From NCBI RefSeq assembly GCF_010499265.1, contig NZ_JAAGSC010000044.1, positions 155,266 through 219,265 on the forward strand: a DNA stretch of 64,000 nt, given 5' to 3'. The notes below the pieces were generated by a model. That model was given only the letters and a program-made list of their open reading frames with translations, was not told the origin of the DNA and did not search any database. The translations under genes were made by a program, and so were the position numbers. This DNA is from Wenzhouxiangella limi (lineage in GTDB: Bacteria; Pseudomonadota; Gammaproteobacteria; Xanthomonadales; Wenzhouxiangellaceae). Below are positions 2,278 through 38,046 of this stretch, in pieces (the first letter of the stretch is position 1; the number at the start of each line of letters is the position of its first letter).

Positions 2278-5263
<2,986 letters not shown>

Positions 5264-14894: not shown

Positions 14895-14927
14895 GGGCAT
14901 ATAGCATCAGCCCTGAGTGGCTTCGGC

Positions 14928-15004
14928 GGCGAGCCGGTGGGGAGGGCATCGCTTCAGTTCGACGCGTGGCGAGGCCTTCAGCGATGCCTCCCCACCGGCT
15001 CGCC
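14928..15004 (+). repeat. hairpin A of composite repeat 1
   Basis: Arms 14928-14951 and 14982-15004 are perfectly complementary apart from one bulged G. The 30-nt loop (14952-14981) begins and ends with CTTCAG and contains ACGCGT. Confidence 0.9.
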
Positions 15005-15078
15005 TTGAGGTCAGGAGCAATTTAAGACAGGACGACTTCGACGAGGTCGGGAGAGTTTCGGCAGCACCACAGGCCCAA

Positions 15079-15152
15079 CGGCAGGGGCGGGGATGACCCC
15101 CTGAAGGCCTCGCCACGCGTCGAACTGAAGGGGGTCATCCCCGCCCCTGCCG
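15079..15152 (-). repeat. hairpin B of composite repeat 1
   Basis: Arms 15079-15100 and 15131-15152 form a perfect 22-bp stem unlike that of hairpin A. The loop (15101-15130) is the exact reverse complement of the hairpin A loop. Confidence 0.9.
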
Positions 15153-15195
15153 GCTCCGAAGCCCAGAATAAGAAAGGCTATCCCGCAGCTGGCTG

Positions 15196-17876
<2,681 letters not shown>

Positions 17877-17880
<4 letters not shown>

Positions 17881-18914
17881 GCCGCCTGGGCCTCTGGCTG
17901 TGCTCTTGGGGCGAAGCCGCGAATCGCCTCGGCAATCGCGGCCAGGTGGTCCGGGGTGGTGCCGCAGCAGCCGCCGATGATGTTGACCAGGCCTTCCTCG
18001 GCATAGCCGCGGATGACCTTGGCCATGTCCTCGGGGCTCTCGTCGTACTCGCCGAACTCGTTCGGCAGCCCGGCGTTGGGGTGGGCGCTGACCCGCGTTG
18101 CCGCGATCCGGCTCAGCGCCCGGACGTGGGCCTTGAGCTGGTCGGCGCCGAGCGCGCAGTTAAAGCCGACGGAAAACGGCCGGGCGTGGGCGACCGAATA
18201 GTAGAAGGCTTCCGGCGTCTGCCCGGAGAGCGTGCGCCCGCTGGCGTCGGTGATGGTGCCGGAAATCATCAGCGGCCAGCGCGCCCCGCGCGCTTCGAAT
18301 TCTTCCTCGACGGCGAACACGGCGGCCTTGGCGTTGAGGGTGTCGAACACGGTCTCGATCATGATCGCATCAGCCCCGCCGTCGAGCAGACCGCGGGCGG
18401 CTTCGCGATAGGCCAGCACCAGATCGTCAAAGGTCACGGCCCGGTAGCCGGGGTTCGAGACGTCCGGCGAGATCGAGGCGGTGCGGTTGGTCGGGCCGAG
18501 GATGCCGACCGCAAAGCGCGGCTTGGCGGGGTCTTTGACCTCGAATTCGGCGCAGGCCTGTCGGGCAAGTTCGGCGGCGATGCGATTGATTTCTTCCGAC
18601 CGGTCCTCCAGGGCGTAGTCGGCCTGGCTGATCCGGTTGGCGTTGAAGGTGTTGGTCTCGATCAGGTCGCAGCCCACGGCCAGAAAGCGGTGGTGGATAT
18701 CGCTGATCAGATCCGGCCGGGTCAGTGTCAGCAGGTCATTGTTGCCCTTGAGATCGTCGCCATGATCGGCGAAGCGCTGACCGCGATAGTCGTCCTCGTC
18801 CAGGCCGGCGGCCTGGATCATGGTGCCCATGGCGCCGTCGAGCAACAGGATGCGCTCGGCCAGGGCGGCCTGAAGTTGCTGCACGCGTTCGGGGTTGTAC
18901 CAGTTCAGCGTCAT
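17877..18914 (-). CDS. metH: methionine synthase, homocysteine S-methyltransferase part (split MetH)
   Basis: A 345-residue zinc-dependent homocysteine-binding barrel: [10 protein letters not shown] near the N-terminus, [24 protein letters not shown] and [10 protein letters not shown] (314-323), whose cysteines together with the earlier one bind zinc. This corresponds to residues 1 to about 350 of E. coli MetH. As a stand-alone protein it must act with the downstream cobalamin half; co-expression is assured by the ATGA overlap. It is coupled upstream to an ArsR-methyltransferase regulator in the same way. Confidence 0.96.
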
Positions 18915-37717: not shown

Positions 37718-37780
37718 AGCTCCCGTTAGCGGGGCTGGGGCGCTCGCTTCGACCTTGCCGGTGATGACTATGGCTTCGAG

Positions 37781-37858
37781 GCCGGTTGGGGTGGGGATGA
37801 CCTCCTTCAGTTCGACGCGTGGCGAGGCCTTCAGGAGGCCATCCCCACCCCAACCGGC
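37781..37858 (+). repeat. hairpin C of composite repeat 2
   Basis: Arms 37781-37804 and 37835-37858 pair at 23 of 24 positions. Loop 37805-37834 is identical to the hairpin A loop. Confidence 0.9.
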
Positions 37859-37929
37859 TTGACGTTGGTGCATCAGCGCCGGCGACGGCGTCTTCGAAGT
37901 CGGCCGGTGGGTTTTTGCCGAGAACGTAG

Positions 37930-38003
37930 GCGAGGGGGCGGGGAGACGTCGCTGAAGGCCTCGCCACGCGTCGAACTGAAGCGACATCTCCCCGCCCCCT
38001 CGC
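37930..38003 (-). repeat. hairpin D of composite repeat 2
   Basis: Arms 37930-37951 and 37982-38003 pair at 21 of 22 positions; the one difference still allows a G-T wobble on one strand. Loop 37952-37981 is the reverse complement of the hairpin A loop. Confidence 0.9.
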
Positions 38004-38046
38004 GGTCGAAGCCTATTGGCCCAGATGCTTTGACAGAGGCTTCCGG

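Follow-up and report, generated by a model that had tools for sequence, protein, structure and literature searches.

The window, a 64,000-nt stretch of the Wenzhouxiangella limi genome, contains two similar intergenic elements. Element 1 (14919-15163, 245 bp) is flanked by a DUF2058 gene and the gene for MetH (B12-dependent methionine synthase), which converge on it, and element 2 (37772-38013, 242 bp) is flanked by tandem genes for a class III aminotransferase and QueG. Wenzhouxiangella is placed in the Wenzhouxiangellaceae by the NCBI taxonomy, and the product of a gene near the window elements has its best outside relatives in a gammaproteobacterial MAG (80%) and Wenzhouxiangella sediminis (77%). 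In the methionine synthase (15196-18914), pterin, B12, and activation domains were matched and an N-terminal methyltransferase domain was not; the adjoining 345-aa gene may carry this domain.

Each element is bounded by a perfect 8-bp match (GGCTTCGR/YCGAAGCC) and contains two hairpins whose loops run in opposite directions (Table 1). Within a pair, one 30-nt loop is the exact reverse complement of the other; the loops are the same in both pairs, and a TTCGA-containing stretch is common to both spacers by eye. All of these features had been reported in a first-pass annotation of this DNA, and all are present. No Rfam family matched in the window at its gathering score. The two nearest relatives have the same gene order at the element 1 spot and lack the core there; other short repeats occupy this gap by eye.

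Table 1. Positions of the hairpins, cores, foot boxes, and spacers of the two inverted pairs in the window
Feature	Positions	Strand	Basis
Foot box GGCTTCGG of hairpin 1	14919..14926	+	sequence; 3′ tail on the folded strand of hairpin 1
Hairpin 1	14928..15004	- (wobble-rich, folded strand)	arms; R1 match 14916-15003 (-), 87.6 bits
Invariant 19-base core TTCGACGCGTGGCGAGGCC of hairpin 1	14958..14976	+	core search
Pair 1 spacer with TTCGA-containing stretch	15005..15078	.	sequence
Hairpin 2 (24-bp perfect arms)	15079..15152	+ (folded)	R1 match 15078-15166 (+), 95 bits
Invariant core of hairpin 2	15106..15124	-	core search
Foot box of hairpin 2, CCGAAGCC on +	15156..15163	-	sequence
Foot box GGCTTCGA of hairpin 3	37772..37779	+	sequence
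Hairpin 3	37782..37857	- (folded)	R1 match 37769-37857 (-), 97.8 bits
Invariant core of hairpin 3	37811..37829	+	core search
Pair 2 spacer with TTCGA-containing stretch	37858..37928	.	sequence
Hairpin 4	37929..38004	+ (folded)	R1 match 37929-38017 (+), 86 bits
Invariant core of hairpin 4	37957..37975	-	core search
Foot box of hairpin 4, TCGAAGCC on +	38006..38013	-	sequence

A single hairpin as the basic unit

We searched the W. limi genome assembly (3.35 Mb, 44 contigs) and found the 19-base core at 22 places, 18 of them exact and four with one mismatch. There are no places with two mismatches, and the one place with three (on contig C15) has no arms by eye. The occurrence of the core is not due to chance because a control search with the core read backwards gives so few matches in this genome (two at up to three mismatches and none at up to two). 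The dispersed intergenic repeat of long arms and constant loop that was proposed for this DNA is real.

These copies are arranged in several ways. Some units stand alone, others follow one another in tandem at a spacing of 79-82 bp, and seven hairpins form an alternating array on contig C35. Inverted pairs occur in the window (two, at spacings of 146-148 bp) and on contig C23 (one), and a third comparable composite (C33:377570-377789, 76% identity to positions 1-223 of the 245-bp element 1 query) sits inside a cluster of four hairpins. Among the loci fetched from relatives, inverted pairs also occur in three genomes (G015, G016, and G036). However, copies without the paired layout predominate, and with single units at 114 of 125 loci examined, the composite fails as a general rule. 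The basic unit is one hairpin of ~76 nt, and the window composite is an inverted pair of such units. The 8-bp ends that the first-pass annotation called terminal inverted repeats resemble the foot box of a single unit, seen twice in an inverted pair, rather than the termini of a transposing unit.

Each unit comprises a ~25-bp stem, which is variable in sequence with complementary arms, and a near-invariant tip. To characterize the first of two tip types (type A), we used 79 units from 13 genomes that were found by their core and compared centred on it; five had flanks too short to be tested. Arm complementarity exceeds that of all 100 shuffles in 72 of the 74 testable units (the failures are L172:3624 and L182:7553), and a GGCTTCGA-like foot box lies 39 bases before the core, within two mismatches, in 25 of them. 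The remaining analysis of type A stems mostly used alignment A1, which holds 61 well-formed units without gaps over 89 columns and leaves out 13 of the 74 for a weak stem, a gap in the stem, or duplicate or edge status. In A1, 26 of the 27 stem pairs change on both sides. Overall, 94.1% of cells pair, which is an upper figure given that a well-formed stem was one of the grounds for including these 61 units. The score for covariation reaches 0.804, compared with 0.070-0.148 for slid pairings.

Mean identity across these 61 units, which come from two genera, is 98.2% in the tip and 47.3% in the stem. Because the core served to find the type A units, tip conservation is partly ascertained, but mismatches stop at one among the W. 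limi core copies. We also compared nine pairs of loci judged by their flanks to be orthologous or duplicated (L179/L167 is of doubtful orthology). In these comparisons, which are not independent since one copy serves in three of them, 185 stem pairs are the same, 12 are compensatory, nine are of the GU type, and 19 are broken, with 10 of the broken pairs falling in one decayed copy. The 20-21-base tip is identical in five of the nine locus pairs and differs by one or two bases in the other four.

A possible local duplication was noticed in genome G037 (L271:7486-8606), where two hairpin copies lie ~1 kb apart with similar upstream flanks, as if the preceding gene had been duplicated. The stems of these two copies differ by compensated changes.

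A structured tip and a preferred strand

The 30-nt loop is constant in sequence, as originally described, but it is not an open loop. Its outermost 2 bp are paired. Inward of these, the folded strand has a tandem G.A (GA/GA) followed by two further pairs, and beyond an internal loop lies a 3-bp mini-stem closed by a tri- or tetraloop. RNA folding of two example units reproduces the proposed tip shape. The tip consensus is GGCCTCGCCAC(N)GCGTCGAA; the type A tip is GGCCTCGCCACGCGTCGAA, and a single additional base at the apex distinguishes type B. Our type B set contains 64 units from loci picked among the matches listed in the family search with structure model R1, counted per unit so that two close pairs count twice, and it includes one unit (L275) without the extra base. 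The outer of the two tip pairs covaries between A-U and G-C (38 and 15 of 61 type A units). In the mini-stem, C-G is kept in 60 of 61 type A units, the exception being a C.A, and among the 64 type B units it is replaced by a compensatory U-A in three, with one U.G and one C.A.

Imperfect stem pairs are distributed unequally between the strands. On the folded strand, G.U-type pairs outnumber A.C mismatches by 87 to 16 in the 61 type A units and by 81 to 5 in 60 distinct type B units. The imbalance is also seen when only distinct contexts are counted (49:15 for type A and 22:5 for type B), when the dominant CCGTCC subfamily is left out (83:19), and over all 74 type A units (117:27). Mutation alone should act equally on both strands. 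Thus, the great excess of GU over AC on one strand suggests that one folded strand, as RNA or ssDNA, is selected. Stability calculated with RNA parameters favours the wobble-rich strand in 56 of 61 type A and 59 of 60 type B units, and with DNA parameters in 47 of 61 and 48 of 60, respectively. Because both parameter sets favour the same strand, RNA and ssDNA are indistinguishable here.

Orientation relative to replication was set aside as evidence. Scored against the G-rich strand, the copies divide 72:45 when pairs and arrays are included (p=0.016), and 55:36 when only singles are counted (p=0.06).

Distribution in the family and a TIR element in relatives

Of 43 Wenzhouxiangellaceae genomes, many of them drafts, 23 contain units recognised by structure model R1 under the stricter filters used for this family search. 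The positive genomes belong to two genera (21 of 30 genomes of the W. limi genus and two of six of a second genus), and none of the seven genomes elsewhere in the family is positive. In one search, seven weak matches of 70 were dropped as the opposite strand of a strong match, and copy numbers are lower bounds because contigs often end inside the repeat. At up to one mismatch, the type A core occurs in 14 of 299 genomes of the order, and at up to three mismatches the type B loop occurs in 20 of 299; neither was found in the 256 genomes outside the family. The type A loop at up to three mismatches was found in the class only in the W. limi genome, out of 369. Viral contigs searched with the exact core gave no match, nor did plasmids and phages searched with element 1.

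In seven relatives, the hairpin lies at the centre of an element of ~184 bp bounded by terminal inverted repeats (TIRs) of 22 bp, which is a new result. Reading outward from the hairpin, the TIR is CCTGATTAGCGTCGTGTCTCAG on one side and its inverse on the other. Both TIRs are present within seven mismatches in 29 of 143 units, some of which are at contig ends, and the resulting element size is 183-186 bp. The TIR-bearing genomes are G018, G021, G024, G028, G031, G033, and, from the second genus, G001, which has one copy only with a weak, 7-mismatch TIR. The element is short and dispersed, with many copies per genome.

Flanking sequences were compared for the 23 units with at most four mismatches per TIR. 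The 8-bp flanks match exactly in four units and at seven or more of the eight positions in eight, and these duplications are all in G018, G021, and G028. Exact matches at other lengths are absent at 4-7 and 9-12 bp and number three at 3 bp. Averaged per position, flank identity is 0.63 for a length of 8 bp, compared with 0.47 at 9 bp, 0.39 at 7 bp, and 0.18-0.32 at 4-6, 10, and 11 bp. The TIRs and 8-bp target duplications in relatives therefore indicate spread as a non-autonomous (MITE-like) transposon, and the first-pass annotation's choice of MITEs as an analogue was a good one.

The W. limi copies lack these ends, so they may have another history. None of the 22 units in this genome has a TIR on either side within seven mismatches, and TIR remnant scores equal the control on average. 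On one side, 13 of the 22 TIR positions match in two of 22 units, compared with 1.1% of control windows, and on the other side in none of 22. On the same side, remnants were seen beside bare hairpins elsewhere in three of 25 units (G001 and G003) and in four of 20 (G037, G030, G023, G029, and G019).

A TIR search of 10 genomes matched seven and returned MITE-sized pairs, derivatives without the hairpin, and halves at contig ends. No TIR pair enclosing a transposase was recognised in the stretches read from these mostly draft genomes. Several loci (L362:6427-6524, L364:2693-2923, and L359:2875-2966) have the same TIRs and no complete hairpin, and the L359 element resembles a deletion between the CGACGC in the tip and the CGACGC in the TIR. 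Some G031 contigs continue from the TIR into a longer repeat, which starts near TTATATCCGGATCCCGCAAAC and follows or interrupts the TIR element at contig ends (L347:3580-4074, L348:3278-3578, and L352:3220-3654). In addition, short direct repeats, among them CAGGTTTCAGG, GGTGAGAGGT, and AACCTTGAACC, are visible by eye in the gap corresponding to element 1 in relatives (L031:5640-5730 and L032:5660-5900) and at some MITE target sites (flanks of L291, L295, and L302). This gap is possibly an insertion hot spot.

Origin and possible role of the hairpin

The relatives provide good support for regarding the unit as a hairpin repeat derived from a MITE. A MITE origin would extend to the window copies by way of the hairpin that they share, and any function of the hairpin is putative. 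The explanation that we favour, with some confidence, is a small, lineage-restricted family of interspersed repeats that was spread as a MITE-like element and in which the tip of one folded hairpin strand is recognised by a putative factor. A TIR-recognising (DDE-type) transposase may have moved the element. In the W. limi lineage, the TIRs would then have been lost while the hairpins were kept and multiplied locally as tandem and inverted copies. One hairpin strand, as RNA or ssDNA, would fold and present its tip to the putative factor, and such recognition could keep the tip constant while G.U or G.T pairs are tolerated and A.C pairs are not. DNA template switching probably helps to maintain the complementarity of the arms.

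We propose a broader interpretation only tentatively, in which the MITE carries a strand-specific, constant-tip hairpin bound by the putative factor, and this transposon-borne structured RNA or ssDNA outlives the transposon through dependence of the host or element on recognition. The stem would be free in sequence, and only its pairing and the tip would matter. Given its place inside a small mobile element in relatives, the hairpin looks like a remnant of mobile DNA that retains a recognition structure, probably a strand-specific one. Genomes with intact MITEs and genomes with bare hairpins allow one to ask why a piece of a transposon persists after its ends are lost.

Known bacterial MITEs (such as Correia/NEMIS, RUP, and ERIC) are likewise small, dispersed, and intergenic, with TIRs and target duplications like those in the relatives, and they can form a stem-loop in a transcript (MITE features are described in PMC2229807). 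Unlike these elements, the present repeat has an internal, off-centre hairpin with covarying arms and a constant tip that is found without TIRs in other genomes, and no parent IS was found for it in the stretches read from the 10 genomes.

The hairpin might instead be an inert palindrome, a functionless MITE relic whose arms are kept complementary by template switching (quasipalindrome correction). Perfect hairpins can be created and maintained, with their loop preserved, by template switching, which has been proposed to enrich G-C and U-A pairs (PMC8794818). The 74 type A units fit this prediction, with G-C exceeding C-G (802:571) and U-A exceeding A-U (333:171), and random gene orientation (see below) also agrees with an inert element. 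However, this account does not predict a large excess of GU over AC on one strand only, nor the contrast between tip and stem identity across two genera, and we regard it as unlikely. Covariation in hairpins can arise from selection on a folded strand or from palindrome repair by template switching, and the repeat provides a clean natural setting in which to tell these apart. Wobble asymmetry gauges selection on the folded strand, and the constant tip marks the likely site at which the putative factor would bind.

Genomic placement bears on whether the host uses the unit at gene 3′ ends, either as a bidirectional transcription terminator or as an mRNA 3′-end stabiliser. With genes called by a codon-usage caller built for this analysis, no predicted gene fully encloses any of the 63 type A clusters, although one cluster overlaps a short predicted ORF by 109 bp and another shows an overlap of 37 bp, and none of 64 type B units overlaps a predicted gene by more than 45 bp. 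Of 109 places at which both neighbours were resolved, 44 are between convergent genes (19 of 56 for type A clusters and 25 of 53 for type B units), whereas the same is true of 70 among the 548 gaps that have no element (12.8%, or 11.3% by length). This enrichment and the long, GC-rich stem suit a 3′-end element, but avoidance of promoters could also account for convergent placement. Simple scans found no terminator-like or promoter-like site at either window element (the terminator scan covered loops of 3-8 only). A run of at least four T within 15 nt after the hairpin occurs on the folded strand in one and on the other strand in seven of 134 units, nine of the 143 having been dropped at contig ends. 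Between tandem genes, the folded strand is codirectional in 16 cases and antisense in 26 (p=0.16); it is thus antisense at least as often as sense, and such random gene orientation argues against a role in host mRNAs.

An apparent orientation towards stop codons was also rejected. In convergent gaps it was first counted at 33 of 39 and fell to 21 of 39 once corrected, the signal having arisen because the hairpin is off-centre in the MITE. In tandem gaps, the first count of 25 of 26 antisense cases became 24 of 26, with 11 of 16 in the other orientation, which shows only that the elements are nearer stops than starts. Overall, a host-used 3′-end element is improbable. The case is also a warning that debris of mobile DNA may be mistaken for a regulatory RNA if judged only by covariation and a position between convergent genes.

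We give still less credence to a REP- or REPIN-like element mobilised as ssDNA by a RAYT (Y1 HUH) transposase, a link suggested by the first-pass annotation. To our knowledge, HUH enzymes are not expected to give TIRs with 8-bp duplications, which counts against this reading. Like REP, BIME, and REPIN sequences, our units are intergenic, occur as singles, inverted pairs, and arrays, and are common between convergent genes (PMC3733652, PMC3116915), and REPs are processed as folded single strands (PMC8266576). However, REPs are described as 20-40 bp long with a GTAG/CGTC foot, stems of mostly 6-9 bp, and short loops (PMC3733652), whereas the present unit has a ~25-bp stem and a near-invariant tip of 18-19 nt. 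Within 6 nt of either hairpin foot, GTAG occurs in none and CGTC in one of the same 134 units. The presence of Y1_Tnp does not follow the repeat, being found in 10 of 23 repeat-positive and nine of 20 repeat-negative genomes; G028 carries at least 20 copies of the repeat and lacks Y1_Tnp. The single Y1 match in W. limi is on contig C34, which lacks the core. One RAYT-like Y1 gene in G031 does adjoin a truncated copy with a TIR, foot box, and part of the stem (L335:3439-3951, within the stretch 3287-3951), but the loop or TIR is present at none of the 10 other Y1 loci read (L336-L345, among 35 matches listed). The repeat also differs from TIRYT-associated repeats, in which families of TIR sequences are dispersed through genomes next to Y1 genes (PMC3733652); here, only one of the 11 Y1 loci read (L335-L345) adjoins a copy of this TIR.

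Finally, the idea that the inverted pair with its 8-bp GGCTTCGR ends is itself the transposing unit draws on the three comparable W. limi pairs and those in three relatives, but it is the least probable reading given the many single loci, the occurrence of the 8-bp end before single units too, and the lack of any target duplication seen by eye beside either window element.

A paired layout of long-armed inverted repeats is also known from the Caulobacter CIR, which has two long inverted-repeat arms, a linker between them, and a conserved motif exposed at the terminal loop (PMC2229807). In CIR this loop motif is GANTC, which is absent from the present tip; moreover, the unit here is one hairpin, and in relatives it sits in a TIR element. 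Among the matches listed from the open PMC literature, there was no account of the present repeat, and in the parts of the Wenzhouxiangella AB-CW3 genome paper (PMC7691419) reached by a term search, no treatment of genomic DNA repeats was found. The repeat has the tested defining features of neither CIR nor REP.
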